Source: Flavobacteriales bacterium
GTDB lineage: Bacteria; Bacteroidota; Bacteroidia; Flavobacteriales_D; CAJJDF01
Assembly (NCBI GenBank): GCA_020630395.1
Contig: JAHDBM010000018.1
Coordinates: forward strand, 14,955 to 49,587
Length of the DNA: 34,633 nucleotides
Direction of reading: 5' to 3'
A program made the translations under genes and the position numbers. The first letter of the stretch is position 1. Every line of letters begins with the position of its first letter. Of the stretch, positions 1 through 19,084 are shown piece by piece. Below the pieces are notes generated by a model. The model did not search any database and was not told the DNA's origin. It saw only the letters and a list, made by a program, of their open reading frames with translations.

Positions 1-1553
1 TTTAACTGGTCTGTTGTTGTAATTTGTCTTTCTTCGGGCAAGTACCATGCTGCTCCTAAACTTCTACCTCTAGGCACTATGGTTACCTTTACTAAAGGAG
101 ATGCATATTTCGTTAACCAACTAACAGTAGCATGTCCTGCTTCATGATACGCAATCGTCTTTTTCTCTTGCTCAGTAAACACCTTACTTTTCTTTTCTAG
201 ACCTCCTATTAGTCTATCTACAGCATCTAAAAAGTCTTGTTTTTCGACAACTTTCTTCTTTTTACGTGCCGCAGTTAATGCAGCTTCATTACATAAATTA
301 GCAATGTCTGCTCCTGAAAATCCAGGTGTTTGCTTTGCTAAGAAATCAACATCTAATTCTTTCTCAACCTTAAGTGGTTTTAGGTGTACTAAGAAAATTT
401 CTTTTCTTTCTTTAAGGTTTGGCATTTCAACATGTATTTGTCTGTCAAAACGACCTGCTCTCATTAATGCACTATCTAATACATCAGCTCGGTTAGTTGC
501 TGCCAAAATAATAACTCCACTATTTGTACCAAAACCATCCATTTCGGTTAATAATTGATTTAACGTGTTCTCACGCTCATCATTAGAACCCATATTTGGA
601 TTTTTTCCTCTAGCTCTACCAATCGCATCAATTTCATCAATAAAAATGATACAAGGAGATTTTTCCTTAGCTTGCTTAAATAAATCTCTAACACGTGATG
701 CACCTACACCAACAAACATTTCTACAAAATCTGAACCAGACATGGAGAAAAATGGAACTTTAGCTTCACCTGCTACCGCTTTTGCCAATAATGTTTTACC
801 TGTTCCTGGAGGGCCTACCAATAATGCTCCTTTAGGTATTTTGGCTCCTAGTTCGGTATATTTTTTAGGATTTTTTAGGAAATCTACGATTTCTTCAATC
901 TCTTCTTTAGCACCTTCTAAGCCTGCTACATCAGTAAAGTTTACATCTACATTTTTGCCATTTTCGTATAGCTTAGCCTTGGATTTTCCAATGTTAAAAA
1001 TTTGTCCGGCTCCTCCACCAGCACCTCCACCTGAAACTCTTCTCATGATGAAAATCCATATAGCAATAATAATAATGAATGGTAACATCATTCCTATAAA
1101 TCCACCAAAATAATCATGCTCTTCATCAAATTCGTAATCAAATTTTTGATTAGCTGGTAACGTTTCGTTTAATCCTTTAATGGTGCTGTAATACTCATTA
1201 ACAGGTGGTGTTTTAAAAGAAAACTGAGGACCTTTTGCCGGTCTACCTAATAAATCATTTTTGGCTAATTTCTTGTAATCCTTGTTTTTTATTAGGGTGT
1301 CCTTTTTTATATATACCCTACCTTCTCCGGTATTTTTAATTACAAGCAATTTATCTACATGTCCTTTTTCTACTAACTCTTCGAACTTTTTAAGGTTAAT
1401 TTTTCTTCCTTCGTTATTATTCCCTAAAAAAGCAAAAGCTAGTATACCTACTATTGCTGCTGCATATATCCAATAAAAATTAAACTTTGGTGGTTTAATT
1501 TTACCATTAGAATTGCCTTTGTTTGTTCTATTTTCTTTTTTATTATTAGCCAT
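1..1553 (-). CDS. ftsH: ATP-dependent zinc metalloprotease FtsH (3' end cut by window edge)
   Basis: Membrane-anchored AAA+ protease that extracts and degrades misfolded or regulatory membrane proteins. I translated the minus strand: ATG at 1553, first 517 residues present, C-terminal part beyond the window. Seen in order: a Lys/Asn-rich cytoplasmic N-tail; TM1 near residues 27-43; a periplasmic FtsH_ext region; TM2 near residues 155-170 just before a Gly-rich linker; the AAA module with Walker A GPPGTGKT (about 247-254), Walker B FIDEID (about 300) and an SRH-type arginine segment (MRAGRFDRQ); and the zinc-site start HEAGH (H470, E471, H474). The third zinc ligand and C-terminal helix are off-window. 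The start lies 2 nt after the rsfS stop, so the two are very likely co-transcribed. No Shine-Dalgarno is visible, as is usual in this phylum. Family assignment is essentially certain. Confidence 0.97.
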
Positions 1554-1555
1554 TA

Positions 1556-1930
1556 TTATGCTTGATATTCAATGTTTGTAATTTTGGCATCTGCCCATAA
1601 CCCTTCTATGTCGTAAAATTCTCTTGCTTCTTTGTAAAAAATGTGAACAATAACGTTAACATAATCTATTAGAACCCATTGAGAGTTACCTATTCCTTCT
1701 TTATGAAGTGGTTTATCGTTTAAATTTTCTTGAGTTTCTTTTTCAACCGATTTTGATAAAGCATCAACTTGTGTACTAGAATCTCCATGACAAATAACAT
1801 AATAATCTGTTATTGCATTAGGGATTTCCCTTAAATCCATGACGGTAATATCATGACCTTTAACCTCTTGCATTCCTTCTACAATGGTTTCCACTAATTG
1901 CTTGTTATACCTTTCTCTATCTTGAATCAT
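1556..1930 (-). CDS. rsfS: Ribosomal silencing factor RsfS (Iojap/DUF143)
   Basis: The RsfS family binds ribosomal protein uL14 and blocks joining of the 30S and 50S subunits, lowering translation in starvation. The 124-residue protein has the usual family length. It carries the core landmarks: the VMDLREI strand, [19 protein letters not shown], and the C-terminal [14 protein letters not shown] followed by [10 protein letters not shown]. The start is ATG at 1930. The gene is the first of an rsfS-ftsH pair (2-nt gap) and is divergent from birA, with 84 bases between the assigned starts. That order is common in Flavobacteriia as far as I recall. The intergenic region has several AT-rich TAnnTTTA-like octamers on the minus strand but none correctly spaced from a TTG, so I do not call a promoter. 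Confidence 0.95.
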
Positions 1931-2014
1931 TAATACTGTTGCAATCTATTAATTTGTAAACTTAATACATTTTTTCAAGTTGATGATTTCACTTTTTAAT
2001 TATGTTATACTTTT

Positions 2015-2782
2015 GTGTTAAAACCATTAAAATTTTTACTTATAAACACATCTATTAACATTATCGAACTTGATACCATAGATAGTACGAACAATTATCT
2101 ATCCAAATTGATTTCTACGACAAATGTGACAAGTGGCACTGTTATTTTGGCACATGAACAAACAAAAGGTAAAGGACAAAGAGGAAACACTTGGGTTACA
2201 GAACCCAATAAAAATCTTACTTTCAGTATGTTTTTAACTAATTTTCATCTTTTAGTAGAAGAAAATTTTTTGATTAGTATGGCAGTAGCCAATAGTATCC
2301 ATAAAGCACTATCATCAATTGTAACTGATGTACTTATAAAATGGCCTAATGATATATTAATTCACAAGAAAAAAGTAGGTGGCATTCTCATTGAAAACAC
2401 TATACAAGGAAAATATATTAATCAAACTGTGATTGGTATAGGCATAAATGTTAATCAAACTAATTTTAATGATATAGATACGGCTACTTCTTTAAAACTT
2501 TTAACTAATAGAGAGTTTGACAAAAAAACATTGCTGTTAGAAATTTGCACTAATCTTATAGAGGAATTCAGCTTAATCAATAGCGCGACAAATAACATAC
2601 GTGAATATTATTTATCTCATTTACACGGATATAAAAAACCATTCCATTATAGAATTAACGATCAAAACATAATTGAAGGTACTATTCAACAGGTAGATTT
2701 TGATGGCAAACTACATGTTTTATCGAATGGAAAAATAATTCAGTTTTATTTTAAAGAAATAGAATTTGTACTTAATCCATAA
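2015..2782 (+). CDS. birA: Biotin--[acetyl-CoA-carboxylase] ligase BirA (no N-terminal repressor domain)
   Basis: Activates biotin to biotinyl-AMP and transfers it to the biotin carboxyl carrier protein of acetyl-CoA carboxylase. Seen: the substrate-binding opening ELDTIDSTNNYL, the adenylate loop GKGQRGNTW (family GRGRxGRxW), KWPNDI, and KVGGILIEN, in the family order. There is no winged-helix DNA-binding domain, so this is a group I enzyme without repressor function. The start is uncertain. The only in-frame standard codon is GTG at 2015, giving about 13 residues ahead of the usual family start. That GTG overlaps a TAnnTTTG-like octamer at 2008-2015, so a shorter product from a non-standard codon (for example ATT near 2054) is possible. 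The stop lies 11 bp inside the 3' end of the convergent ABC-F gene. Confidence 0.93.
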   Translation: MLKPLKFLLINTSINIIELDTIDSTNNYLSKLISTTNVTSGTVILAHEQTKGKGQRGNTWVTEPNKNLTFSMFLTNFHLLVEENFLISMAVANSIHKALSSIVTDVLIKWPNDILIHKKKVGGILIENTIQGKYINQTVIGIGINVNQTNFNDIDTATSLKLLTNREFDKKTLLLEICTNLIEEFSLINSATNNIREYYLSHLHGYKKPFHYRINDQNIIEGTIQQVDFDGKLHVLSNGKIIQFYFKEIEFVLNP

Positions 2783-4619
2783 GTTCAGCTAATTCCATCC
2801 ACCTCTCTGTTTTTTCTTCAATTTTAGCACTTAAACTTTCGGATTCTTTTCCTAATTCAATAAGTTTCTCTGGATTTTCTGAGTGGCTATACATGTCTTG
2901 TTCCAGTTGTTTTTTCTTCTTTTCTAGCTTATCTATTTCTTTTTCAAGCTTATTATACTCTTTTTTAAGATTATAGTCTACTTTTTTAGGTTGATCCTCA
3001 TAAACCTCTTTCTTTACTTCTATTTTTTTAGATTTAGCTTGATTTTTTTCTTCAATTAAATGATTTCGGTAACTGTAATAATTACCTAGGATATCTTTTA
3101 CTTGACCTTCTCCTTTTAAATAAAACATATGATCACATATTTTATCAAGGAAATACCTATCATGAGAAATAACAATTAAACATCCTGTAAACTGCTCTAA
3201 AAAATTCTCTAATGCCGCTATAGTAAATATATCTAAGTCATTAGTAGGCTCATCCATAATTAAGAAATTAGGATTACCCATTAAAATCCTAAGTAAATAG
3301 AGCCTCTTCTTTTCTCCTCCACTTAATTTATACACAAAGTTATAATGCATATTTTTTGGGAAGAAAAAACGTTCTAGCATTTGTGATGCTGTAATTGTTT
3401 TACCTTTTTCAAGCGGGATGTAATCAGCTATTTCTTTAACTACGTCTATTACTTTTTGATCGTCTTTAAAAGCTAGCCCTTTTTGGTCATAATAACCAAA
3501 AGATATAGTGTCTCCAATAACTATTTTACCAGCATCTGGTTCTAGTTTGTTTAGTATTAGGTTAACGAAAGAGGTCTTCCCTACTCCATTTTTTCCTACA
3601 ATTCCAATTTTTTCGAATCGTTTAAAATTATAAGTGAAATTATCTAGTATTTTTAAATCTCCGAATGACTTAGAGACTTTATGAAACTCTATAATTTTAG
3701 TTCCCATTCTTTGAGATTGCACACTTAACTCCAATTTGGATTTATCAATCTTAGTAGTAGCGACTTTCTTTATATCATCAAAGGCATCTACCCTTGATTT
3801 TGCTTTAGTTCCTCTTGCTTTAGGTTGTCTCCTAATCCAATCTAACTCTTTCTTAAACAAGTTATTTGCCTTATCTATTACTTGTTGTTGATTTACTAAA
3901 CGTTCTTGTCTTTTTTCTAAGTAATATGTGAAATTTCCTTTGTACTTAAATAATTGTTGATCGTCTAACTCTAATATTTGGTCACATATATTATCTAAAA
4001 AATAACGATCATGCGTAACCATAAATAAGGTTACATTTTGTTGAGTAAGGTATTTTTCTAACCATTCGATCATGTCTAAGTCAAGATGATTAGTAGGCTC
4101 ATCCAATATTAATACGTCTGGTTCATCAAATAAAACTTTAGCTAAACATAGTCTTTTGATTTCTCCTCCTGACATACCTGTTGTTGGAAGCGTAGTATCT
4201 ACGATTCCAAATGCTGACAATATTTTTGTTGCTCGTTCTTCTATATCCCAAGCATTGAGTCTTGTCATTTCTTCAATTGCTTCTTGAAAAGCTTCAGATT
4301 CGGGAGCATTGACAGCTAAATCTTCATATTTAGCTATTATATCATATTTAGGATCATTAAAAAAGAAATCCTTGACAGACATATTATCAGTTTCATCTAG
4401 TTGATCTAAAAAACCTACTGTCACATCTTTTCTCCAAACTACTTTACCGGTATCTGGAACATCTTTGCCAGTTAACAATTTTAATAAAGTCGTTTTTCCA
4501 GCTCCATTTTTAGCAACAAAGGCTAATTTTTGCCCTTTATCTATACCAAATGATACATCTTTAAACAATACTCTTTCTCCAAAAGATTTACTAATATTTT
4601 CTACTGATAGGTAATTCAT
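2772..4619 (-). CDS. uup: ABC-F family ATPase, Uup-like
   Basis: Soluble duplicated ATP-binding cassette protein without membrane segments. ABC-F proteins act on ribosomes or, for Uup, also affect DNA-level processes such as transposon excision. Two full cassettes are visible. Cassette 1 has Walker A KNGAGKTT (about 37-44), signature MSGGE and Walker B LILDEPTNHLD. Cassette 2 has KNGVGKTS (about 343), LSGGEKKR and LIMDEPTNDLD. Between them lies the charged linker typical of ABC-F, and the last ~80 residues are a Lys/Glu-rich coiled coil like the Uup C-terminal domain. I start it at ATG 4619 (615 aa); a TTG two codons upstream gives MFM but lies inside the -7 promoter box. It faces birA tail-to-tail with an 11-bp overlap. 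The exact subfamily is inferred from the coiled-coil tail. Confidence 0.93.
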   Translation of the reverse strand: MNYLSVENISKSFGERVLFKDVSFGIDKGQKLAFVAKNGAGKTTLLKLLTGKDVPDTGKVVWRKDVTVGFLDQLDETDNMSVKDFFFNDPKYDIIAKYEDLAVNAPESEAFQEAIEEMTRLNAWDIEERATKILSAFGIVDTTLPTTGMSGGEIKRLCLAKVLFDEPDVLILDEPTNHLDLDMIEWLEKYLTQQNVTLFMVTHDRYFLDNICDQILELDDQQLFKYKGNFTYYLEKRQERLVNQQQVIDKANNLFKKELDWIRRQPKARGTKAKSRVDAFDDIKKVATTKIDKSKLELSVQSQRMGTKIIEFHKVSKSFGDLKILDNFTYNFKRFEKIGIVGKNGVGKTSFVNLILNKLEPDAGKIVIGDTISFGYYDQKGLAFKDDQKVIDVVKEIADYIPLEKGKTITASQMLERFFFPKNMHYNFVYKLSGGEKKRLYLLRILMGNPNFLIMDEPTNDLDIFTIAALENFLEQFTGCLIVISHDRYFLDKICDHMFYLKGEGQVKDILGNYYSYRNHLIEEKNQAKSKKIEVKKEVYEDQPKKVDYNLKKEYNKLEKEIDKLEKKKKQLEQDMYSHSENPEKLIELGKESESLSAKIEEKTERWMELAELMD

Positions 4620-4622
4620 AAA

Positions 4623-4650
4623 CAAATATAGACATAAAAAAAGCGACCAA
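4623..4650 (-). promoter_or_regulatory. Bacteroidetes-type promoter of the ABC-F gene, overlapping a terminator
   Basis: On the minus strand TTG (4650-4648) is followed after 17 nt by a perfect TATATTTG (4630-4623). This fits the flavobacterial consensus TTG-N17..23-TAnnTTTG. The -7 box ends 3 nt before the ATG at 4619, so the predicted transcript would be leaderless or nearly so. The TTG lies in one arm of the terminator hairpin of the upstream gene. Confidence 0.7.
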
Positions 4651-4662
4651 TTTTGGTCGCTT
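4636..4662 (-). terminator. Rho-independent terminator of the fibre-like protein gene
   Basis: Perfect 10-bp inverted repeat AAGCGACCAA / TTGGTCGCTT with a 2-nt centre (4641-4662). On the minus strand it is followed by a run of seven T (4642-4636). It lies about 20 nt after the stop codon at 4682. It is GC-richer than the surroundings and clearly separates the fibre gene from the ABC-F gene. Confidence 0.85.
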
Positions 4663-4681
4663 AAATTTTACATGTAAATTC

Positions 4682-7600
4682 CTATTTAGTATACTCCATA
4701 ACTACTATGCATTTTTCTAATATTGATCCTGATGAAAAATCAGCAGAATTACCAGTGTCTAAAATTAATCTATTAAAGTCTTGAACATGAGCGCCAATTC
4801 CAAATCCCTCATCTGATTGATAAGTAGTTGAATTAACACCTTCAAATTTTCTACCACCACCATCATCAATTCTCCAGTAAACATCAAGTCTAACTATATC
4901 GTCATAAACACCTGCTGGCACGGACAAACCAACTCCATTTGTAGTCGTTCCGTTACCTGCAGCTAACCATTCAGCTTGCGTAATTGTATCTACAACTCTG
5001 AAAATCTTTTTACCATTAATCCATCTTTCACCTGTCCAGTGTTCTACTGTATCATAATCTCTTACACCCTGAACAGTATCAGTATTTTGAATAACAGTTG
5101 TATCGGTAACTAAAATTAAAGAATCAATGGGCTTAAATTCTACTTCTCCACTTATTGAATCTCTTAATGTTAACACATAACCTTCTTTTGCAGTAGTATC
5201 CATAACATCTGGAGTAGCCATTCTAATATCACTTGATACAGAAAATCTAGTTCCAGATTGAGATCCACCTCCATTACCTTCTACAAAAAACTGATTGGAA
5301 TATATTTCAAATGATTCAAAATCATTCCAGAAAAGTTCAGCTGCTCTTCCATTACCATCTACACTTCTAGCGCCAAAGATAGTATCATCATGAGAGTATA
5401 TTGAGGTTTTACTATTGTTAATTGTATTACTTAAACTATCTAAACTGTATTCAATTATGGTTCCATCAGTTGCAAAACCAGCCAGGTAATTTGTACCTGT
5501 TTTAGTTAAATCACTAGATTCCATATTACCAGCTCCATAATTGTCACTTCTAATTGATCTATCAGATGTATTTATTTCAAATACTCTGTCAGCACCTCTT
5601 CTCCAAACCACTTGACCAAAAGCATTATTTCCTGAAATAGCAGTCAATTTGTATTCCATCTCAATTCCAGTTCGATAAGCTCCATTCAACCAAAATTGAT
5701 GGATTTGATCAAAACTTTCTCTATTTAACAGTGTATTACCTGGACTACTTATTGTACCCGTACCGACCCTGTAAGCCTCAAAAGTAACACCTATATTTGA
5801 TGGTATATGATAATAATGATAAGTATCTTCCCCATTGGTTATCATTTTTTGATTATCTAAATTATTATGCACTTCAAAAAATCTTCCATTCTTATTATAC
5901 AAAAACCTATTACTATCCTCAGTTAGTTCTCCATTAGGTCCTGCAAAAATAACGGATCCTGGAGTAAATAAAGAATCAGTGTTCATTATTTCTTTAGCTA
6001 ATGAATCTTTATGTAGTTCAATAATAGTACCGTCAGTAGCAAAACCTGCTAAAAAAGGAGAATTTGTTTTAGATAAAGATGCACTTAACATATTACCCAA
6101 TCCATATTGATTAAATTGAATGGTTTTATCGTATAGAAAAGTGGCTACATCAGATCCTCCATTTGCATTTCCATTTTCTCCTTCACCTCTTAGATCAATA
6201 GTATATTTTCCCATAGGATAACCGGCTGAATTATTTTTTAAATAATGTACTTCATTATTTGCTATTCTTCCTGTTCCAGTTCCAGTTCCTGCTGAAGGTA
6301 CTCGATATGCAATTCCTCCAACATATCTATTTGAATCTAAATTTGTAAATGGTAATCTATTTTTAATTGTACCATTTGCCATCACGAAATTATAAATAGG
6401 TGCTGGACCACCACCAGTTCCTGCACCTTCATGCACTATTGCATCTCCCCACCATCTTAACCTATTATCAGTGCTTTCAAATAAATCTAAATTAGAAGTT
6501 GGAATTGATGTACCCATACCTAAATAACCTTCCTTACTAAACACAACTGTATCTCCTGATTCTAATGCTTTTCTTCCAAATATTGTTGAATCAGAATCTG
6601 ATATCCACTCATTACTAATATTTAGTGCTTTAGCTAAACTATCGATTGGTTGGGATTGAAAAGTTCCATCAGCTGTTGTGTATAGAAAATTATCTATTGC
6701 ATTGGTATCAATTCGTGTATTTTGATATGAATGAAGCCTAAAATCATCATTTGCTTTTAGCGTTAATTTTGGCACTAAGTAATTTGAAACCTGAAATACA
6801 TCCACATTAGATAAATTAGTTGTAAATGTTCTTCCTTGTATTGTAACAGCCGCTTTTTTATTTACTCCTAAAGTATTTGGATCAACATCATCAGCATCTG
6901 GTATTTGTGAACTGATAACATAATTAGATGTTCCTCCTGGCTCAGGGAATATTGACTCCTGGTATCCACCATTCGGAGCTTTTTGGAGCATCCATGTGTT
7001 TGCATAAGCTGAATTTCCGGTTTGTACAGATAACAAGGACTTCCAGTTAGCTGTATTAGAATCTGTTAATACTAAACCTGAAGCATTATTGGCTTCCCAT
7101 GATATTGGTAATGATCTATCTCCAATTCTCAGCTTATTTAGATTTTGATCCCAGAAAAAATTTAGATTTTCTTCAGCTAAACTTCCAGAACTATCTGCAA
7201 AAATAACGGATCCAGTGGTGAATATTGAATCATTGTATACAGACGAATCCTTAATAAAACCTTTAATAATATTATTATCTTCTGTAAGATATAGTGTATC
7301 ACCTATCCTCCATAAACTGTCTACATTTGTTTCAATAGAATCTTGAAGAGAGCTTAAAAATATAGAGTCTAACAAAAGACTATCTCTATTTAGCGTATAT
7401 GATGAATCATTAAAAAATATAGTATCGTTATTGCCTCCTAGTATACTATCTAATCTATAAACCCATGAACTATCCATTAGTAGAGAATCTGATAACACTG
7501 TGTAAAAAGTATCTACTCTAAGGTTAATTAAACTATCGATTAAATTAGTATCAAGAGACATGGATAACACTACCCAGTTACCATTTTCAATAAATAATGT

Positions 7601-7957
7601 ATCATTACTTAATGTTAAGTTTTGACTATCAGTATTAACAGAATCAATAAAAATGGAGTCATTGAATAATGAATCTCTTACTAAATCAATTATGGAATCT
7701 ACATTTTGACTTGTAATCCTTGATGATAAAGAATCTAATAACATATGCCTAACAACTCCTGTTGTTGGATTTACTACTAATACATGTTGTTCTGATACAA
7801 ATGCATTTAATCCTTCTACTTTTAATGGATCAGCTCCAACAGTACCAACAACATGTAGCGCATTAGTAGGTGTTGTAGTACCTATACCTACATTTTGTGA
7901 AAAGATGTTGTTAAAAAAGCAAATAATAGCTAGTAAACTTAATAAAATATGTTTCAT
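4682..7957 (-). CDS. Large secreted fibre-like repeat protein of unknown function
   Basis: 1091 residues with a Sec signal peptide (MKHILLSLLAIICFFNNIFSQ). The mature start NVGIGTTTPTNALHV is seen in many Bacteroidota secreted or tail-fibre-like proteins. Residues about 75-240 are low-complexity, rich in DSL, DSI and NDT steps. Two duplicated modules follow: GSVIFA(D/G)..G.L.E near residues 245 and 665, and NM..S.L.KT....LAGFATDGTIIE near 620 and 820. The C-terminus (about 1000-1091) ends in a compact beta-like segment with no recognisable T9SS sorting domain and no S74 chaperone domain. It has its own promoter (7978-8009) and strong terminator (4636-4662), so it is a single-gene unit. A surface fibre, adhesin or structural filament is my inference; no enzyme motif is visible. 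Confidence 0.85.
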   Translation of the reverse strand: MKHILLSLLAIICFFNNIFSQNVGIGTTTPTNALHVVGTVGADPLKVEGLNAFVSEQHVLVVNPTTGVVRHMLLDSLSSRITSQNVDSIIDLVRDSLFNDSIFIDSVNTDSQNLTLSNDTLFIENGNWVVLSMSLDTNLIDSLINLRVDTFYTVLSDSLLMDSSWVYRLDSILGGNNDTIFFNDSSYTLNRDSLLLDSIFLSSLQDSIETNVDSLWRIGDTLYLTEDNNIIKGFIKDSSVYNDSIFTTGSVIFADSSGSLAEENLNFFWDQNLNKLRIGDRSLPISWEANNASGLVLTDSNTANWKSLLSVQTGNSAYANTWMLQKAPNGGYQESIFPEPGGTSNYVISSQIPDADDVDPNTLGVNKKAAVTIQGRTFTTNLSNVDVFQVSNYLVPKLTLKANDDFRLHSYQNTRIDTNAIDNFLYTTADGTFQSQPIDSLAKALNISNEWISDSDSTIFGRKALESGDTVVFSKEGYLGMGTSIPTSNLDLFESTDNRLRWWGDAIVHEGAGTGGGPAPIYNFVMANGTIKNRLPFTNLDSNRYVGGIAYRVPSAGTGTGTGRIANNEVHYLKNNSAGYPMGKYTIDLRGEGENGNANGGSDVATFLYDKTIQFNQYGLGNMLSASLSKTNSPFLAGFATDGTIIELHKDSLAKEIMNTDSLFTPGSVIFAGPNGELTEDSNRFLYNKNGRFFEVHNNLDNQKMITNGEDTYHYYHIPSNIGVTFEAYRVGTGTISSPGNTLLNRESFDQIHQFWLNGAYRTGIEMEYKLTAISGNNAFGQVVWRRGADRVFEINTSDRSIRSDNYGAGNMESSDLTKTGTNYLAGFATDGTIIEYSLDSLSNTINNSKTSIYSHDDTIFGARSVDGNGRAAELFWNDFESFEIYSNQFFVEGNGGGSQSGTRFSVSSDIRMATPDVMDTTAKEGYVLTLRDSISGEVEFKPIDSLILVTDTTVIQNTDTVQGVRDYDTVEHWTGERWINGKKIFRVVDTITQAEWLAAGNGTTTNGVGLSVPAGVYDDIVRLDVYWRIDDGGGRKFEGVNSTTYQSDEGFGIGAHVQDFNRLILDTGNSADFSSGSILEKCIVVMEYTK

Positions 7958-7977
7958 AATAATTTTAATTGTGAGGA

Positions 7978-8009
7978 TAAAAGTAAGTTAAGAAAGCTCA
8001 ATTAACAAA
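7978..8009 (-). promoter_or_regulatory. Promoter of the fibre-like protein gene
   Basis: Minus strand TTTG (8009-8006), 20-nt spacer, then TACTTTTA (7985-7978). This matches TAnnTTTG except for A in the last position. The -33 box lies inside the last codons of the upstream GT9 gene, and the ATG is 20 nt downstream at 7957. Confidence 0.55.
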
Positions 8010-9014
8010 TGTTATTTTTCCACTTACATCAGTGATTGTTATTTGTTTCATACATGCATGATCCCCTCTATAACAAGGCTTATTACCAAAAACAGAACAT
8101 GGACTACACGCTATCTCGCTATGAAGCACTACATTATTATCTCCTATGGGTTTAAAACCCATAACTGGATGTGTGCTTCCCCAAATTGATATTGAAGGAG
8201 TACCCACTAATGATGCCATATGCATATTAGAAGAGTCCATAGTAATTATTTGATCTAGCTTACTTATTAATGTTAACTCTTGATCAAGTTTTAATTCATT
8301 TGAGGGCAAATAAATAAAAGGATGACTCTTTTTTAAATCATTTAATTGGTCCATCTCTTCTTTTCCTCCACCAAACATAAAAACCTTTACCTTTTGCTGA
8401 GATAAAAACTGAAGTAATTCATTAATTTTATCAATTCCCCAAACTTTGGTTTCATGCTTTGCAAAAGGTGCAATACCTATCCAAAATTGTTTTTTTTCAA
8501 GATTATTAGTACTTAAATAAGCATCAATATTAGCTGAAGGAATTAGCCATGGACCATTAACTAAATTTGTATCATAACCAGCATTTTTAAACACTTCTAA
8601 ATATCTATGAACTGCATGTTTTAAGGTAGTACTTTTATCGTTACTTGAAATTAATTTCTTTTTTTGCCTTCTTTCTTTATCAATTTTAAAAACTTTATTT
8701 CCAGACAGTTTAAAAAAAGTATTTAATATGTTTGTTCTCAATACATCATGTAAATCACAGATAACATCAGGTTTGTATGTATTTAGAAGTTCTTTTTGTA
8801 GTTTTTTTAGCCCGAATAATCCTTTATACTTATCTAAATTAACAGGCACTACTGTTAATCTTTCATGAGATTGAAAAAAGTGACTAAATAAAGGTCTTGT
8901 AACAAAAATAATTTCAACATCTGGATAATTTTTTAAAACAGATTGTATTCCTGGAGCAACTAAGGCTACATCTCCCATAGCTGAAAACCTGTATGCTAAA
9001 ATTTTCTTCAACAT
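7998..9014 (-). CDS. Glycosyltransferase family 9 (heptosyltransferase-like)
   Basis: GT9 enzymes transfer heptose or related sugars from ADP-activated donors to lipopolysaccharide core at the inner face of the inner membrane. The 338-residue protein starts with the GT9 signature RFSAMGDVALVAPGIQSV. Its C-terminal half carries the donor-site strand ITMDSSNMHMASLVGTPSISIWGSTHP, which is the family's D(S/T)(G/S)xxHxA..(G)xPxxxxxG pattern. A Cys cluster (CSPCSVFGNKPCYRGDHACM) near the C-terminus resembles the terminal Cys-rich segment of bacteroidal members. The start ATG overlaps the DUF4254 stop by 1 nt (TAATG), which implies translational coupling. Together these suggest a role in LPS or surface glycan assembly. 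The sugar transferred cannot be read from sequence. Confidence 0.9.
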   Translation of the reverse strand: MLKKILAYRFSAMGDVALVAPGIQSVLKNYPDVEIIFVTRPLFSHFFQSHERLTVVPVNLDKYKGLFGLKKLQKELLNTYKPDVICDLHDVLRTNILNTFFKLSGNKVFKIDKERRQKKKLISSNDKSTTLKHAVHRYLEVFKNAGYDTNLVNGPWLIPSANIDAYLSTNNLEKKQFWIGIAPFAKHETKVWGIDKINELLQFLSQQKVKVFMFGGGKEEMDQLNDLKKSHPFIYLPSNELKLDQELTLISKLDQIITMDSSNMHMASLVGTPSISIWGSTHPVMGFKPIGDNNVVLHSEIACSPCSVFGNKPCYRGDHACMKQITITDVSGKITFVN

Positions 9015-9607
9015 TACTTTTTGTACAACACAGGATTTAAACTCTCGTCATTATACATTTTCATTTGGCGATATACTTTCATATATTTTTGTCCAGATAA
9101 TATATCTTCAATTAATTGATCGAAAGCTAAACTTAAATCTGCCTTTTGCTCAAGTAAAACTGATAATTTATTTTTACATTTATTTAAGTGATTCTCATCT
9201 GTATCAGCTCTATCAACTTGCTCTTGCATGTGATATATCTTTAGTGCTAGTATAGATAATCTATCTACTACCCATGCAGGGCTTTCTGTATTTAATCTAC
9301 CCGATTTTATGTTGTTTTTTTCTCCAAAAAAACTTAAAAACCAATCATCAATTTGCTCCACTAAATCAGTTCGTTCTTGGTTAGATTTATCAATTCTTCT
9401 TTTGAGTTTAAGTCCTTCTACTGGATCAATATTGGGGTCTCTTACAATATCTTCTAAATGCCATTGAACAGTATCAATCCAATTTTTTTCACATAATAAA
9501 GCATCTATACCTTCAAAATCATGTAATAAAACGGTATCAACATCATCAGTTTCATGATATTTATCGATAGTACTTTCAAAAATGGATAAACAATGTGCTG
9601 CTTTCAT
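9014..9607 (-). CDS. DUF4254 domain protein
   Basis: 197 residues, mostly helical, soluble, with no signal peptide or membrane segment. I recognise the DUF4254 pattern from its length, the NxxRTDLVEQID motif (seen here as NQERTDLVEQID), the central SPAWVVDRLSILALKIYHM and the terminal helix EDILSGQKYMKVYRQMKMYND. The biochemical function of the family is not known to me. It abuts the thioesterase gene (stop and start adjacent) and overlaps the GT9 gene by 1 nt, so it is likely made together with the glycosyltransferase. I recall DUF4254 genes next to GT9 genes in other Bacteroidota, which points to an accessory role in glycan assembly. That is inference. Confidence 0.85.
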   Translation of the reverse strand: MKAAHCLSIFESTIDKYHETDDVDTVLLHDFEGIDALLCEKNWIDTVQWHLEDIVRDPNIDPVEGLKLKRRIDKSNQERTDLVEQIDDWFLSFFGEKNNIKSGRLNTESPAWVVDRLSILALKIYHMQEQVDRADTDENHLNKCKNKLSVLLEQKADLSLAFDQLIEDILSGQKYMKVYRQMKMYNDESLNPVLYKK

Positions 9608-10135
9608 CTAATCAATATTTTCTTCTCCAAAAAACAAAGCTTTTAATTCTGTCGCTTCATTTGGATTCATTTTTTTTGCTAAAATAAGACTTAATTGCCT
9701 TCTTCTAAGTGCACCTCCATAACGCTTTATTTCTTCATCAGTTTCGGGAACAACCTTAGGTACTTCAATTGTACGACCATGTTGATCTACTGCTACAAAA
9801 GTAGTAATTGCTTCATTAGCCTTTATTTTTTCTCCTGTTAAAAAATCTTCTACCGAAACATCTACAAAAATCTCCATTGAAGACTTAAATGCCCTAGAAA
9901 CTTTTGCTTCTAAAGTAACTGTATCACCTAATTTAATTGGTTTATCAAAAGACAAATGATTAATAGTAGCTGTTACCACTTCTCTATTACAGTGGCGTCT
10001 TGCAGATATTGAAGCAATAATGTCTATCCATGACATTAGCCTTCCTCCAAATAAATTATTATGAAAATTTGTATCGTTAGGTAACACAATATGTGTTGCA
10101 ACTGCAATTGTATCTTTTGGATTTCTTTCGCTCAT
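9608..10135 (-). CDS. Acyl-CoA thioesterase (YciA/BACH-type hotdog)
   Basis: Hydrolyses acyl-CoA to free acid and CoA. The 175-residue protein has a single hotdog domain. Visible landmarks are the N-terminal VLPNDTNFHNNLFGGRLMSWID, which holds the family Asn/His..Gly-Gly active-site stretch and the catalytic Asp, and then VTATINHLSFDKPIKLGDTV, matching the YciA/ACOT7 beta-sheet core. A C-terminal tail of about 40 residues (RRRQLSLILAKK) follows the domain, as in bacteroidal homologues. It is the first gene of a tight unit with DUF4254 and GT9. It is divergent from the membrane protein at 10244 with a 108-bp intergenic region. I see only an imperfect -7 box (GATATTTG) on this strand, so no promoter is called. 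Confidence 0.92.
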   Translation of the reverse strand: MSERNPKDTIAVATHIVLPNDTNFHNNLFGGRLMSWIDIIASISARRHCNREVVTATINHLSFDKPIKLGDTVTLEAKVSRAFKSSMEIFVDVSVEDFLTGEKIKANEAITTFVAVDQHGRTIEVPKVVPETDEEIKRYGGALRRRQLSLILAKKMNPNEATELKALFFGEENID

Positions 10136-10210
10136 GTATCGCTATTCATTAACCGTTAAACAAATATCTTAAAATAAGCGCAAACGAACTACGATTGGAT
10201 AAACTTTTAG

Positions 10211-10218
10211 TAATTTTG
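10211..10218 (+). promoter_or_regulatory. Probable -7 promoter box upstream of the 4-TM protein gene
   Basis: Perfect TAATTTTG octamer (TAnnTTTG) 25 nt before the ATG at 10244. No TTG lies at the expected 17-23 nt upstream (the nearest, at 10195-10197, gives a 13-nt spacer), so this is only a partial match. Confidence 0.4.
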
Positions 10219-10243
10219 AACAATCATATTATAATATCTACTT

Positions 10244-10687
10244 ATGTATACAGGTCTTCAACACTTACACAGTCTTAATCGATACATTATTCTTGTTCTA
10301 TTATTAGTCGTTATTTATACCTCATTTACTAAATGGAAAGGAAAAAAAATATATACCGGACTAGATAATAAACTCAATTTATTCACTTTTATTTCTGCTC
10401 ATATTCAACTAACCATTGGTTTAGTCCTATATTTTTGGAATAAGAGTGGCTTAGTGAATTTTGATAATATATCAGTAAAAATATATCGTTTTTTTACTCT
10501 TGAACATTTAGTTGGGATGCTTATCGCTATAGCCTTAATTACAATTTGTAGAATAAAAATTAAAAAAATTAGTGATCACACTAAAAAGCATAAGCAAACC
10601 TTTATATACTATTTAGTTGCTTTAGTTATCATATTTGCTTCAATTCCTTGGCCATTTAGAAATGTTGGTATTGACTCTTGGTTTTAA
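10244..10687 (+). CDS. Four-helix integral membrane protein with conserved-looking histidines
   Basis: 147 residues with four hydrophobic segments at about 14-31, 45-65, 85-104 and 118-136. There is no signal peptide distinct from TM1. Histidines sit at the membrane edges or inside helices: H7, H9, H53 in TM2 and H88 in TM3. I recall Bacteroidota relatives with the same MYTGLxHLHS opening that databases label loosely as cytochrome b-like. The paired histidines would fit haem b, but I see no definitive motif. It starts at ATG 10244 behind a TAnnTTTG box, and its stop lies 4 nt before a mini-ORF that leads directly into xth. Function unknown; a small membrane redox protein is the best guess. 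Confidence 0.85.
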   Translation: MYTGLQHLHSLNRYIILVLLLVVIYTSFTKWKGKKIYTGLDNKLNLFTFISAHIQLTIGLVLYFWNKSGLVNFDNISVKIYRFFTLEHLVGMLIAIALITICRIKIKKISDHTKKHKQTFIYYLVALVIIFASIPWPFRNVGIDSWF

Positions 10688-10691
10688 GCCC

Positions 10692-10772
10692 ATGATGGGC
10701 AACAATAACTCGAGAGAACAAGCAACCATTAATAAAACAATCGCCATAATATCAACTTACTCCTATAAATAA
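10692..10772 (+). CDS. Possible 26-codon mini-ORF abutting xth
   Basis: ATG at 10692 (or 10695) opens a 26-codon frame beginning MMGNNNSREQ and ending TAA at 10770-10772. The xth ATG follows with no gap. The start codon lies in a small hairpin, GCCCATGATGGGC (10688-10700), that begins directly after the membrane-protein stop. The gap-free chain of stop, mini-ORF and xth start fits translational coupling. It could equally be chance in an AT-rich spacer. No homology is recognised. Confidence 0.3.
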   Translation: MMGNNNSREQATINKTIAIISTYSYK

Positions 10773-11534
10773 ATGAAAATTATTTCTTATAACGTTAATG
10801 GCATTAGAGCAGCTTTAAACAAAGACTGGATTAAATGGGTAAATGCAGTTAATCCAGATATTATTTGTTTACAAGAAACAAAAGCTCAGCCTGAGCAGAT
10901 TGACACTACACTTTTTAAAGAAAATGGTTTTAATACCTACATACATTCTGCAGTTAAAAAAGGATACAGTGGAGTAGCAATTTTATCCAAAACTGAACCT
11001 AAGCATGTTGAATATGGGTGTGGTATTGAAAAATATGATAATGAAGGGCGTATTATTCGTGCTGACTTTGAAGACTTTTCTATTATTAGTGCATACTTTC
11101 CTTCTGGTAGCAGTGGTGATATTAGACAAGACTTTAAAATGGATTTTTTAGCTGATTTTTATACATACATTAAAAAGCTAAAGCAAGAAATTCCCAATTT
11201 GATAATATCTGGAGATTACAATATATGTCATAAAGCAATTGATATTCATAATCCAATTTCTAACAAAAAAAGTTCTGGTTTTTTACCAGAAGAAAGACAG
11301 TGGATATCTGATTTTATAGATTTAGGATTTATTGATTCTTTTAGATATTTTAATGAGCAACCACATCAATATACCTGGTGGACTTATCGTTTTGGTGCCA
11401 GAGGTAAAAATTTAGGATGGAGAATTGATTATCATATGGTGTCTCAAACGCTTGAAAGTAAATTAAAAAGAGCTAATATTTTATCGGAAGCTGTACATTC
11501 TGATCATTGTCCAATTTTAATTGAACTTGATTAA
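10773..11534 (+). CDS. xth: Exodeoxyribonuclease III (AP endonuclease)
   Basis: Base-excision repair enzyme that incises abasic sites and degrades 3' ends of duplex DNA, using Mg2+. The 253-residue length is typical. The endonuclease/exonuclease/phosphatase motifs appear in order: NVNGIRAAL at the N-terminus, the metal ligand in CLQETKA (E36 region), GYSGVAILSK, SGDYNICH, the WWTYRFGARGKNLGWRIDYHMVS block, and the C-terminal catalytic HSDHCPI. The start ATG is unambiguous because MKIISYNVNGIRA is the conserved family start. It is likely transcribed with the upstream membrane protein, since no separate promoter is visible in the 85-nt spacer. Confidence 0.96.
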   Translation: MKIISYNVNGIRAALNKDWIKWVNAVNPDIICLQETKAQPEQIDTTLFKENGFNTYIHSAVKKGYSGVAILSKTEPKHVEYGCGIEKYDNEGRIIRADFEDFSIISAYFPSGSSGDIRQDFKMDFLADFYTYIKKLKQEIPNLIISGDYNICHKAIDIHNPISNKKSSGFLPEERQWISDFIDLGFIDSFRYFNEQPHQYTWWTYRFGARGKNLGWRIDYHMVSQTLESKLKRANILSEAVHSDHCPILIELD

Positions 11535-11609
11535 TTCCTTAGGTCAAATGTTCTATTTACATTGAATTTTAATTATCTTTAAGTAATTCTACAACATAAG
11601 ATAATTTAC

Positions 11610-13049
11610 ATGGCAAATAACGATTTTTATTTTGATCTTCATATACACCCCTTAATTAAATCATTTAATTCTGGACATCCTAAACCCAAAGTTGATATAT
11701 GGGAAGAAATAGATCATCAAAAAGTTAGTAGTAAAGTCGCTAAAATTGCCGAAAAGAGTTCAGTACATGTAGCCAAATATTCTCAATGTAATTTTGAAAA
11801 ATTACTAGCTGGAAAAAATAGAGCGGTATCAGTTTCGCTAACTCCTGTTGAATTTGGCTTTTTAGATCATAGAAATTTACCTAAAGCTATTTCATCCAGC
11901 AAGGGTCGTAAGGAGGTGTTTTCCTTAATATCGGGAATGTCTTACGAAAAAGTATCTCATATTTTTAATCATGTAGATTATTGGGAAGAATTAAATGGAG
12001 AGTACAACTATTTGGTTAAAGGACAGGGTAAACACAAGTCTGGTGAATATTATTTAGCAAACAATTACAAAGAATTAAATAATATTATTAAAAATGAAAA
12101 TGCGATAGGTATAGTATTATCCATAGAAGGTGCTCACACTTTATTTGATAAAGAAATGTTATCAGGTAATATGACTCAAACTGCACTTAGAAAAAAATTA
12201 ATTAATCATGCTGGGCAGATGAAAAGCTGGGATCACCCCCCTTTTTTCATTACAATATGTCACCATTTTTGGAATAATCTTGCTGGTCATGCCAGAAGCA
12301 TTACCGGACCAACCTCTAACATCCTTAATCAAAACAAAGGATTAGAAAGGGGAATTAACGGAAATGGAGCAATTGTCATTCGAGAGCTTTTAAGTGGAGA
12401 TAATGGTAAAAGAGTATTAATTGACACAAAACACTTTAGTGTTAAAGCTAGAAAAGAATACTACAAGTTTGTTAAAGGCTACAATAGGATTTCTACCAGT
12501 GATAAAATTCCAATTATTCAAAGTCATGCTTCTCCTAATGGATACAAAACTATGTCTGGTTCTGTTAGAAAAAAGGACAATAAAAAGAAGCTTAAAAACG
12601 GTTATTTACACAACCTAGGAATCAACATTTCGGATGAAGAATTTGAAATAATTGGTAAAAGTGGTGGTTTAGTTGGGTTAATCCTTAATAAGGAACGAAT
12701 TTATGGAGATAAATTTAGAGCTCAAGTTGAACGTTTATCTGACCAAGAAAAAATTAAAGAAGCCTATATTAAGCTTGTTTGGGATAATCTTTTACAACCT
12801 GTAAAAGTTATGAAATCTAAAGAAGCATGGGACATGATGTGTATTGGATCTGACTGGGATGGAGCAATTACCCACCTTGATGGCTATGACGGAGCTGATA
12901 AAATGCCTCAATTTAGAGATGATTTATATACTTATTTGGATAAATATAAATATGAAAAAAATCATTGGCATGGATATAAAGCTGAGGAATTAGTAGAAAA
13001 AATAATGAAAACGAACGGAATGGACTTTTTAAAGAAGCATTTTGTGTAG
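11610..13049 (+). CDS. M19-like membrane dipeptidase family metallohydrolase
   Basis: 479 residues, no signal peptide, predicted cytoplasmic. The renal dipeptidase (M19) landmarks are present: IVLSIEGAHTL (bridging Glu E173), LIDTKHFS (H275), IPIIQSHASP (H306), the SDEEFEIIGKSGGLVGLIL helix-strand, and MCIGSDWDGAI (D415). The first metal motif is DLHIHP (H11, H13), so the usual HxD is HxH, as in amidohydrolase-superfamily enzymes. The protein is about 100 residues longer than typical M19 enzymes, with extra sequence between residues 30 and 150. Substrate could be dipeptides or another amide. It is followed, tail-to-tail, by endonuclease III after 50 bases. Confidence 0.82.
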   Translation: MANNDFYFDLHIHPLIKSFNSGHPKPKVDIWEEIDHQKVSSKVAKIAEKSSVHVAKYSQCNFEKLLAGKNRAVSVSLTPVEFGFLDHRNLPKAISSSKGRKEVFSLISGMSYEKVSHIFNHVDYWEELNGEYNYLVKGQGKHKSGEYYLANNYKELNNIIKNENAIGIVLSIEGAHTLFDKEMLSGNMTQTALRKKLINHAGQMKSWDHPPFFITICHHFWNNLAGHARSITGPTSNILNQNKGLERGINGNGAIVIRELLSGDNGKRVLIDTKHFSVKARKEYYKFVKGYNRISTSDKIPIIQSHASPNGYKTMSGSVRKKDNKKKLKNGYLHNLGINISDEEFEIIGKSGGLVGLILNKERIYGDKFRAQVERLSDQEKIKEAYIKLVWDNLLQPVKVMKSKEAWDMMCIGSDWDGAITHLDGYDGADKMPQFRDDLYTYLDKYKYEKNHWHGYKAEELVEKIMKTNGMDFLKKHFV

Positions 13050-13099
13050 TATTTAATACATTTCATTATTAAGAGTGGCTTTTAAAGCCATGATATACC

Positions 13100-13744
13100 T
13101 TACCTATACCCTTCCAAATTTGTTTTTCTCCCTATAGTTTTGGTAATGATATCTTTTTCAATATCCCAGCCTCTTGCTGGTGAGTATTCTCTACCATAAA
13201 ATATGATTTGTAAATGTAGTTTATTCCATATTTCTCTTGGGAATAAACGCTTACAATCTTTTTCGGTTTGTGTAACATTTTTACCATTAGATAATCCCCA
13301 TCTGTAAATAAGTCTATGAATATGAGTATCAACAGGAAAAGCAGGAACTCCAAATGCTTGACTCATAACAACAGAAGCTGTTTTATGTCCTACTCCAGGC
13401 AATTCCTCTAATAATTCCATATTAGCAGGCACTTCCCCATTATAGTTATCTATTAAAATATGAGATAAGTCATAAATAGCTTTAGATTTTCTAGGAGACA
13501 AACCACAAGGACGAATAATCTCCCTAATTTCATCTACTGATAGTTTAACCATATCAAAAGGATTATCAGCCCTTTCAAATAATAAAGGAGTAATTTGATT
13601 TACTCTAACATCCGTACATTGAGCAGATAATAACACTGCTATTAATAATGTGTATTCATCAGTATGATCTAATGGTACAGGAACTGTTGGGTATAATTCT
13701 TCTAACTTATCAATTACAAATTGAACTTTCTCTTGTTTTAACAT
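13100..13744 (-). CDS. nth: Endonuclease III, variant lacking the C-terminal [4Fe-4S] cysteines
   Basis: Bifunctional DNA glycosylase/AP lyase for oxidised pyrimidines. The helix-hairpin-helix LPGVGHKTASVV holds the catalytic Lys (K121), and FPVDTHIHRL holds the catalytic Asp (D139). Usual length (214 aa). The region that normally carries C-x6-C-x2-C-x5-C reads REYSPARGWDIEKDIITKTIGRK and has no cysteine; the only Cys after residue 80 is C164. I recall the same Cys-free tail in other Flavobacteriia, so this looks like a clade feature rather than a local mutation. The upstream gene on the same strand (small secreted protein) ends 9 nt before its start, so they are probably co-transcribed. Confidence 0.93.
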   Translation of the reverse strand: MLKQEKVQFVIDKLEELYPTVPVPLDHTDEYTLLIAVLLSAQCTDVRVNQITPLLFERADNPFDMVKLSVDEIREIIRPCGLSPRKSKAIYDLSHILIDNYNGEVPANMELLEELPGVGHKTASVVMSQAFGVPAFPVDTHIHRLIYRWGLSNGKNVTQTEKDCKRLFPREIWNKLHLQIIFYGREYSPARGWDIEKDIITKTIGRKTNLEGYR

Positions 13745-13753
13745 GTAACAAAG

Positions 13754-14131
13754 TTAGTTACTAGATTCTAGTTCTTCGATAATTGCTTTTAATTCTTTTA
13801 TAAAATCTTGCTGAGCTTCTTTAAACTCTTCACTTTGCATCACTTCTGATATATCTTGTTTTACCATTTGCATATCGATCTTAACTTGATTTATGATAGA
13901 ATCCATGGGTATTTGTTCAGTCATTAAAACACTATCTAACAAATGAACTGAAGATTTTAATTGTGATTTCATTTCCATTAATTCTTCTTTAGGAAACATT
14001 TCTTCAAAGTTAATTTCAGTTAAAGTAGTTTTAATTTCTTGAAAAAAATCAATAATCGTATCATTATTAGTTTGTGAAACAGAAAGTTTTACACCTAATG
14101 TAAGTAACAACAATAGTAATAGTTTACTCAT
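13754..14131 (-). CDS. Small secreted acidic helical protein, unknown function
   Basis: 125 residues. A strongly hydrophobic signal peptide (MSKLLLLLLLTLGVKLSVSQ) precedes an acidic, Met/Glu/Lys-rich region without cysteines. From about residue 30 onward it looks almost entirely alpha-helical, possibly coiled coil (LMEMKSQLKSSVHLLDSV, EEFKEAQQDFIKELKAIIEEL). No lipobox, sorting domain or enzyme motif is visible. It precedes nth by 9 nt and follows the terminator of the large T9SS protein gene, so it starts a new transcription unit. A periplasmic role is inferred. I do not recognise the family. Confidence 0.75.
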   Translation of the reverse strand: MSKLLLLLLLTLGVKLSVSQTNNDTIIDFFQEIKTTLTEINFEEMFPKEELMEMKSQLKSSVHLLDSVLMTEQIPMDSIINQVKIDMQMVKQDISEVMQSEEFKEAQQDFIKELKAIIEELESSN

Positions 14132-14179
14132 AACTCTTTTTTTAAATGATAACGTATAAATAATAGAAAATAGTATAAC

Positions 14180-14211
14180 AAAAAAAAAGGATCAGTAAAT
14201 ACTGATCCTTT
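14180..14211 (-). terminator. Rho-independent terminator of the T9SS type B protein gene
   Basis: Perfect 12-bp stem AAAGGATCAGTA / TACTGATCCTTT with a 2-nt loop (14186-14211). On the minus strand it is followed by a T-run (A on the plus strand, 14180-14188). It sits 15 nt past the stop codon of the 14227-17136 gene. Confidence 0.88.
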
Positions 14212-14226
14212 AAGTCTTAATTATAA

Positions 14227-17136: not shown

Positions 17137-17190
17137 TTTAAATACTTTAACAATTTATACTTTACATGAGTTATATGAAACCTTTTCTAA

Positions 17191-18957
17191 TTAAGAATAT
17201 ATTTTATTAATTAAAGTGTCATTTTTTTCAAGGATAATATTTCTTTTAAGTTTTAAAGTAGGTGTTAATTCTCCTCCTTCAATACTCCACTCTTTGGGTA
17301 AAATTTCAATTTTCTTAACTTGCTCCCATTTTGCAAAATCAACATTATAAACATTAATTTCTTCATTGATTTTAGCAATGACCATATCATTTTTCACTAA
17401 GTCGGCATGATCTTTATAAGAAATACCTTTCTCGCCTGCCCACTCCACTAATTTTTCAAATGATGGTACTACCAATGCAGCTGGATGCTTTTTATATTCA
17501 CCAATAACCATAATTTGCTCAACAAAAGGTGATAATTTAAATTTATTCTCCATTAATTCTGGTGAAACGTATTTACCTCCTGATGTTTTAAAAATTTGTT
17601 TTATTCTTCCTGTTATTTTTAAGAAATTATTTTCTACAAAAGTTCCTTTATCTCCAGTATGGAACCAACCATCAGCATCAATAGCTTCATTTGTTTGTTC
17701 CTCATTTTTATAATACCCCTGCATTACATTTGGACCTTTAACTAATATCTCTCCAGTATCACTATCTATTTTAACTTCAACAGATTTTAATACTTTACCT
17801 ACAGTTCCTATTCTAATACCATCATTAAATGCCGAATTTACAGATATTACTGGAGAAGTCTCTGTTAATCCATATCCTTCATAAATTGGTATCTCAGCAG
17901 CATAAAACACTCTCATTAAACTAGACTCTAGTGCTGCACTACCAGAAACAATCAGTTGTAAGTTTCCTCCTAAACCTTCGTGCCACTTGCTAAATATTAA
18001 TTTTCTAGCAATTTTTAATTTGAATTTATAATATGAACTTGCATTTTGCGGATCATATTTTAATCCTAAACCAACAGCCCACATGAATAATTTTGTTTTA
18101 ATTCCCCCAGCTGCTTCACCTTTAGCCATAATTTTAGCATATACTTTTTCAATAAGTCTAGGTACAGCTGTAAATATATGTGGCTTTACTTCTTTAATAT
18201 TATCTCCAATAGTCTCAATTGATTCGGCAAAGTAAATAGAAACACCTATATATTGGTATAAATAGGTAATCATACGTTCAAAAATATGACATATTGGTAA
18301 AAAGCTTAACGCCTTAGCATCAGCTGTAATTGGAACTCTATCTAAGCTATCCAATACATTACTTACAATGTTTTTATGAGTTAGCATAACTCCTTTAGGT
18401 AAACCTGTAGTTCCAGAAGTATATATAAAAGAAGCTAAATCATCTTCTTTCACATTTGCCATTAAATCATGTATCGTTTTATCATCAACATCATTACCTG
18501 CTTCAAGAATTTCTGTCCAGTGTTTAGCTCCACTTATTTCATCATACGTGTAAATAGCTTCTAATGACGGAACTTGATCTTTTATAGATGAAACTTTATC
18601 AAATAAATCTTTGTTAGATACCACACATATTTTAATCTCAGCATGATTAAAAATATATTTATAATCTTCTTCTGTTATAGTAGGATAAATTGGAACATTT
18701 ATAGCTCCTGTTTGTAAAATACCAATATCTGAAATATGCCACTCAGGTCTATTGTTAGCAGATATTAAAGCCACTTTTTCACCAGGCTTAACTCCCATTT
18801 TGACCAACCCTTTACTAAACTTCATGGCTTTATCTACATATTCTTGCGTAGATACTTTAACCCATTCTCCGTTTACTTTAGATACTAAAGCATCATCATT
18901 AGGATTTTTCTCAAGTTGGTAATAAGGGAAATCAAAAAGTCTGGTTATTTTATCCAT
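17191..18957 (-). CDS. Long-chain acyl-CoA synthetase (AMP-forming)
   Basis: Activates fatty acids to acyl-CoA via an acyl-adenylate. The 588-residue protein shows the ANL-superfamily motifs in order: P-loop YTSGTTGLPKGVMLTH (about 179-194), the GYGLTETSP motif (about 360), the HTGDKG motif (about 432), the hinge GRIKQIFKTSGGKYVSP (about 450), and a near-terminal Lys (ELTPTLKLKR) for the adenylation half-reaction. The length and IPIYPTITEEDYKYIFNHAE opening fit FAA1/FadD15-type enzymes. There is no membrane segment. It has its own promoter (18986-19016) and is divergent from the addB-like gene. A 54-nt spacer with no terminator separates it from the downstream T9SS gene, so read-through is possible. 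Confidence 0.94.
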   Translation of the reverse strand: MDKITRLFDFPYYQLEKNPNDDALVSKVNGEWVKVSTQEYVDKAMKFSKGLVKMGVKPGEKVALISANNRPEWHISDIGILQTGAINVPIYPTITEEDYKYIFNHAEIKICVVSNKDLFDKVSSIKDQVPSLEAIYTYDEISGAKHWTEILEAGNDVDDKTIHDLMANVKEDDLASFIYTSGTTGLPKGVMLTHKNIVSNVLDSLDRVPITADAKALSFLPICHIFERMITYLYQYIGVSIYFAESIETIGDNIKEVKPHIFTAVPRLIEKVYAKIMAKGEAAGGIKTKLFMWAVGLGLKYDPQNASSYYKFKLKIARKLIFSKWHEGLGGNLQLIVSGSAALESSLMRVFYAAEIPIYEGYGLTETSPVISVNSAFNDGIRIGTVGKVLKSVEVKIDSDTGEILVKGPNVMQGYYKNEEQTNEAIDADGWFHTGDKGTFVENNFLKITGRIKQIFKTSGGKYVSPELMENKFKLSPFVEQIMVIGEYKKHPAALVVPSFEKLVEWAGEKGISYKDHADLVKNDMVIAKINEEINVYNVDFAKWEQVKKIEILPKEWSIEGGELTPTLKLKRNIILEKNDTLINKIYS

Positions 18958-18985
18958 GAGTTTTAAAAGATTATTATTTAGGTTG

Positions 18986-19016: not shown

Positions 19017-19056
19017 GCAAATACCCTAAACCCCTTATTCTATTCATTTATATTAG

Positions 19057-19064: not shown

Positions 19065-19084
19065 TCTTAGAAAAACGATTGTAA

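Follow-up and report, generated by a model that had tools for sequence, protein, structure and literature searches.

A -7 box abutting an ABC-F start codon in a Flavobacteriales bacterium predicts a near-leaderless transcript, and the layout recurs among ABC-F orthologs

The window is the whole stretch of 34,633 nucleotides analysed here, taken from a contig of a Flavobacteriales bacterium (JAHDBM010000018.1). Two co-directional genes on its minus strand are separated by a short region that carries a hairpin, a T-tract and a promoter-like box. The features are as follows.

4682..7957, minus strand: upstream co-directional gene, 1091 aa, with an N-terminus that resembles a signal peptide
4662-4641, minus strand: inverted repeat AAGCGACCAAAATTGGTCGCTT, 9-bp stem, loop AAAT (4653-4650)
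4650-4648, minus strand: TTG, 17 nt (4647-4631) before the -7 box, claimed earlier as a -33 element
4640-4636, minus strand: T-tract T5, directly after the hairpin
4630-4623, minus strand: -7 box TATATTTG, fitting the Bacteroidota consensus TAHHTTTG without mismatch and separated from the ATG by 3 nt
2772..4619, minus strand: gene for a 615-aa ABC-F ATPase, ATG at 4619-4617 with the predicted +1 at 4619

Read along the minus strand, the order is hairpin, T5, ATGTC, TATATTTG, TTT and the ATG at 4619. The hairpin starts 19 nt past the upstream stop codon, and 5 nt separate the T-tract from the -7 box. An earlier sequence-only reading of this locus had listed the hairpin, the TTG, its 17-nt spacer, the -7 box and the ATG, and all of its coordinates hold when checked against the sequence. 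It had also put the TTG in the distal arm of the hairpin; this is true of two of the three bases, the first T being a loop base in the fold. An out-of-frame ATG lies right past the T-tract (window 4635). Its short frame overlaps the ABC-F start, and read-through transcripts would meet this ATG first.

The 615-aa protein is an ABC-F ATPase. Pfam identified PF00005 in two stretches together with PF12848 (the ABC_tran_Xtn linker) above the gathering score, and a C-terminal ABC_tran_CTD domain is also present. The ABC-F family model NF000355 scored 398 bits, above its cut-off of 380. The NCBIfam models for EttA and Uup scored below their cut-offs (PRK11819, 443 of 599 bits; TIGR03719, 437 of 807; NF050005, 397 of 900), and the solved relatives of the protein are EttA, Uup, YheS and YbiT. 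We take the ATG at 4619 as the correct start because most orthologs begin with MN(Y/F/V/L)LSVE or similar at this point. For the 1091-aa upstream protein, no NCBIfam or Pfam family was matched at an E-value of 0.001, the sole PHROGs match had an E-value of 0.035, and a solved relative was not found at E-values up to 1. By eye, it is a large protein with repeats of the VGIGTTTP type.

The hairpin at 4641–4662 and its T5 are the intrinsic terminator of the 1091-aa gene. The stem has 9 bp, five of them G-C pairs. Among 18 terminator-like sites in positions 1–20000 of the window (shuffled sequence gave 6.6 sites on average), it has the most G-C pairs, and one other site exceeds it in total pairs (11 vs 9). 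The 71 nt around it fold with an energy of -18 kcal/mol (z -4.4). Since the hairpin lies on the same strand as the ABC-F gene and ends 21 nt before its start, it could instead act in the ABC-F transcript, as a leader or attenuator. We consider this highly improbable: the hairpin begins within 19 nt of the upstream stop, and inspection by eye found no TAnnTTTG between that stop and the hairpin.

Promoters of the Bacteroidota primary sigma factor (sigma-ABfr) consist of a -33 TTTG and a -7 TAnnTTTG, and the latter is matched by the box at 4630-4623. We measured how often such a box stands close to a start codon in the same genome, using a first sample of 784 kb with 546 genes (open frames of at least 120 codons, each taken from its first ATG). 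An exact TAHHTTTG was located 3 nt before the ATG in three genes and 4 nt before it in eight, that is, in 11 of 546 genes vs about 0.7 expected (0.33 per position). Only four genes in all had it at 5–12 nt, and 40 had it at 13–30 nt. There are thus two classes of TAHHTTTG before ATGs: the near class, which is real in this genome and to which the box of the window belongs, and the boxes at 13–30 nt, which are those of ordinary leadered genes. Fresh sequence of 382 kb (274 genes) from the same genome yielded six near boxes (one at 4 nt, two at 5, three at 6 and none at 3) and 14 boxes at 13–30 nt, so the near class is present again, placed less sharply. In the window and the other own-genome stretches (L213-L257 and L336-L355) taken together, an exact box at 3–6 nt was counted in 18 of 818 genes. 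A crude count of TAHHTTTG-N4-ATG over the whole genome, coding sequence included, showed no excess over the reversed pattern (54 vs 50); the genome is AT-rich. On the gene-based counts, it is very unlikely that the -7 box of the ABC-F gene is a chance match.

Within the window, the nth gene (13744) has an exact TAHHTTTG 4 nt before its ATG. Elsewhere in the genome, the same is seen for recQ-, purT-, lpxD- and queE-like genes (6 nt in one of them); these names, like that of nth, are presumed from the N-termini. The string TAHHTTTA forms a similar near peak (3, 8, 3 and 3 of the 546 genes at 3, 4, 5 and 6 nt). As it is as frequent as TAHHTTTG at this distance, the last -7 base may be G or A here.

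The +1 of sigma-A promoters is usually a purine. In Flavobacterium johnsoniae, the -7 box spans -12 to -5 and is followed by 4–5 nt to +1 (PMC6847099, in the part consulted), and the box of F. psychrophilum occupies the same positions in the available part of PMC9723704. With the published gap, transcription of the ABC-F gene would begin on the T (gap 4) or the G (gap 5) of the ATG. Only with a gap of 3 would it begin on the A, which is the fourth position counted from the last G of the box and, at that gap, the closest purine. We therefore place the predicted +1 at A4619, with a leader of 0 nt. Since a sigma-A-type -7 box abuts the start codon, a near-leaderless transcript is predicted. This had been proposed in the sequence-only reading, and it is borne out, as a prediction, by the near class in the same genome and by the recurrence among orthologs described below. 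The gap itself speaks against it: 3 nt is one below the published range, and the window alone has it among the 40 orthologs with this layout. The other ABC-F genes of the genome do not share the arrangement. Two lack a near box (L002 and L005), the exact box of L004 stands at 15 nt, and the start position of L003 was not resolved. General leaderlessness of the ABC-F genes of this genome was accordingly rejected.

The earlier proposal went further, taking the TTG of the hairpin as a true -33 element, so that termination and initiation would share DNA and influence each other. A TTG does stand 17 nt before the box. The chance of finding one is 2.2% at one fixed spacing and 6.6% at N17–19. Upstream of the 72 exact boxes among the 818 own-genome genes, TTG occurs at N17 once (1.47 expected), at N19 four times and at N20 eight times, and this enrichment marks N19–20 as the -33 spacing of this genome. 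The window has AAT and AAA at N19 and N20; its TTG is found at N17 only, and the usual spacing therefore lacks a -33 TTTG or TTG. Two other lineages with both a terminator and a box, genus g15 of family f3 (G019) and the Saprospiraceae locus L088, have by eye no TTG at N17–21. According to the part of PMC6847099 consulted, F. johnsoniae promoters did not reveal a clear -33 motif, and many promoters of the phylum have a weak -33 element or none. We reject the terminator arm as a -33 element; its double use is probably a coincidence, and a functional TTG is distinctly unlikely.

One further observation had favoured shared DNA. In the first own-genome sample, we noticed post hoc that TAHHTTT[GA] at 3–6 nt was commoner where a terminator ends within 40 nt of the ATG (6/17 genes) than in the others (23/527). 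The association was not replicated: it was 0/4 in the fresh sequence of the same genome (6/21 vs 35/797 combined), and other stretches and genomes gave 1/21 vs 67/1129. That terminators squeeze promoters into leaderlessness is therefore unproven as a general rule. At least 5 of 124 ABC-F orthologs have a terminator within 60 nt, a lower bound because the scan, which allowed loops of 3–8 nt, misses a larger-loop hairpin seen by eye in genus g15 of family f3.

Close relatives do not share the box. A genome of the same genus (G001) has the N-terminus of the ABC-F protein (L298) on a different contig from the rest of the gene. Residues 1–75 are encoded on L298 (G001:C45), after which the frame on that contig diverges and stops. 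Residues 133–615 are encoded at a contig end (L089, G001:C110). The split reflects either an assembly break or a disrupted gene. Upstream of the L298 ATG, inspection by eye shows an open frame for a long, repetitive protein and, roughly 100 nt from the ATG, a short hairpin followed by a T-tract. The 112 nt next to that ATG contain no exact TAHHTTTG. In the sister genus g2 of the same family, the ABC-F start lies 2–3 nt behind a long upstream ORF with no near box (4/4 genomes). The sequence-only reading had expected the box to be conserved in close relatives. Locally this fails, in the same-genus ortholog and in the four others of the family. The box does recur in other families of the order. 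The absence from both genera indicates that the arrangement is recent in the lineage of the window.

These comparisons lend some weight to a different account, in which most ABC-F transcripts come from read-through or from a more distant upstream promoter, and the box either marks a minor start or matches the consensus by chance, the sequence being AT-rich. The box is conserved neither in the genus nor in the family, the gene of the sister genus abuts the upstream ORF and is presumably co-transcribed with it, and the whole-genome pattern count showed no excess. We nevertheless hold this account to be unlikely. Chance would supply under about one in ten of the boxes at 3–4 nt (0.66 expected of 11), and the interval from the upstream stop to the hairpin holds no TAnnTTTG by eye. 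A strong terminator also lies between the two genes, which argues against coupling by read-through. Control of ABC-F expression by upstream transcription or by 70S initiation is a speculative suggestion.

We then compared orthologs across the order. An ABC-F match at E ≤1e-140 was obtained in 131 of 150 genomes, and 124 of these had a readable start. Seven were dropped as the N-terminus was missing (G001, G031, G033, G050, G065, G083 and G137; G001 was read apart, as above). When one mismatch is allowed, a box stands 3–6 nt before an in-frame ATG or GTG in 40 of the 124 orthologs, from 16 of 52 genera, and it is exact in 22 of the 40, from 11 genera. When the 120 nt upstream were shuffled 200 times, the mean was 3.1 orthologs with a box and the maximum 8. 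Other offsets in the same orthologs gave 1 (7–10 nt), 3 (11–14 nt) and 11 (19–22 nt). The gap is 4 nt in 23 of the 40 orthologs, 5 nt in 13 and 6 nt in three, the window supplying the remaining one. Most of them belong to family f10 (32/40 orthologs), followed by f3 (4/22), f8 (2/3), f5 (1/1) and f1 (1/5). None was found in f9 (0/40), in which ABC-F genes often abut an upstream gene or are ordinarily leadered, or in the remaining six families (0/13).

Some f10 genera show the box once the start is shifted to an upstream in-frame ATG or GTG, and background genes were allowed the same shift. Under this generous rule, 38 of 279 background genes from stretches of three f10 genera (g51, g44 and g23) show the layout, vs 32 of 40 ABC-F orthologs (Fisher 2e-17, relatedness ignored); counted by genus, the layout is found in 12 of 17 (Fisher 5e-7 against the background). 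As a control gene we used nth, which is itself near-leaderless in the genome of the window (gap 4). The layout was present in one of 29 nth orthologs, these being the loci of the best 29 of 137 genomes with a match (150 searched). Of 23 genomes in both sets, seven have the layout at the ABC-F gene alone, one at both genes and none at nth alone (sign test 0.016). The near-leaderless promoter layout is a known minor type in the phylum that recurs in ABC-F genes more than in the control genes examined.

Outside the order, 6 of 33 named loci have the layout, three of them with an exact box. This set was defined by record title, some titles saying only Bacteroidetes (L079 groups with Flavobacteriaceae in the tree), and two loci without a resolved start (L045 and L076) were counted as lacking the layout. 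At the Saprospiraceae locus L088, a terminator ends 22 nt before the ATG and TACATTTG stands 4 nt before it. FastTree was given 100 ABC-F proteins (22 from the genome search and 78 of 80 named loci, L030 and L032 being left out) and kept 99. With 14 of these labelled as having the layout, the tree requires at least about 11 changes of state, an approximate figure given the method, the long branches and two weak labels (L023 and L063, each with one mismatch and gap 3). So many changes suggest that the layout is labile and arises repeatedly.

Several side observations were made in these sets. In genera g24, g29 and g33 of family f3, a TAnGTTTA-like string was seen by eye 3–6 nt before most ABC-F starts (L173, L178, L182-L184, L192, L193, L195 and L206); these strings were not counted as boxes and could be a variant -7 element. 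Over whole genomes of families f9 and f10, TAHHTTTG-N4-ATG outnumbers its reversed form by 61 to 0 (G082), 71 to 7 (G055) and 108 to 15 (G013), and TAHHTTTG-N20-ATG by 12 to 1 in G082. In some lineages of these families, a sizeable share of promoters may be leaderless. The ABC-F protein of L015 (CP034120.1), titled Glaciecola amylolytica, groups with Fluviicola, and the record may be mislabelled.

Our preferred reading, to which we assign a probability of about 0.7, is that the sigma-A-type -7 box 3 nt from the ABC-F ATG drives a leaderless or near-leaderless mRNA, past the terminator of the upstream, putative surface-protein gene. RNA polymerase coming from the upstream gene would halt at the hairpin. 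New initiation would occur at the -7 box, with +1 on the A of the ATG or within 1–2 nt of it, and the resulting ABC-F mRNA would be essentially without a leader. The TTG of the hairpin would most likely be no -33 element, and the T-tract (about -17 to -23) would serve at most as an AT-rich spacer. Promoter activity, the exact start and leaderless translation at the ABC-F gene are what we infer from the arrangement of these elements.

To our knowledge, Bacteroidota mRNAs lack Shine-Dalgarno sites, and the ABC-F gene is a concrete leaderless candidate in such a phylum. Among the literature matches listed, no title names a leaderless ABC-F gene or a terminator arm serving as a promoter in the phylum. 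A survey based on the Pribnow box reported leaderless genes in 1 of 37 Bacteroidetes/Chlorobi genomes, and the consulted part of it allows that non-Pribnow signals may escape (PMC3160421). The strong excess of TAHHTTTG-N4-ATG over the reversed control in several lineages suggests that such surveys miss leaderless genes in Bacteroidota. The recurrence in ABC-F orthologs, which the background sample and the one control gene appear to support, is to us the most interesting residue of this work. If it reflects selection, a translation factor would be linked to how its own mRNA is initiated. Leaderless expression could then be a selected property of an ABC-F subfamily in part of the Flavobacteriales, near-universal in one family (32/40) and re-evolved elsewhere, including the lineage of the window, with synthesis responding to the initiation state (for example 70S or IF3 availability). 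We regard this as doubtful; if true, the mRNA of a factor acting on the ribosome would bypass leadered initiation.

Leaderless mRNAs are a measured minority class in Flavobacterium and Bacteroides, and the predicted 0-nt leader resembles them. In the parts of the sources consulted, they make up 5.5% of mRNAs in F. psychrophilum (PMC9723704), about 3.7% of 5′ UTRs are under 10 nt in B. thetaiotaomicron (PMC7366714), and 87% of leaders exceed 10 nt in F. johnsoniae (PMC6847099). The 5′ ends were measured in those species, whereas here the end is predicted from sequence alone. The gene resembles sigma-ABfr promoters in its exact TAHHTTTG on the coding strand, at a distance from the ATG that is a real class in its own genome. 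It differs from them in the 3-nt gap to the purine, compared with 4–5 nt in the consulted part of PMC6847099, and in having no TTG at the enriched N19–20 of its own genome. The hairpin is like other intrinsic (Rho-independent) terminators, with a perfect G-C-rich stem and a T-tract right past a stop codon, and is unusual in that the -7 box of the next gene follows the T-tract after 5 nt. The protein shares with Uup, EttA and related ABC-F ATPases the two ABC ATPase stretches, the ABC_tran_Xtn linker and the ABC_tran_CTD domain, and it is set apart from EttA and Uup by scoring under the NCBIfam cut-offs of both.
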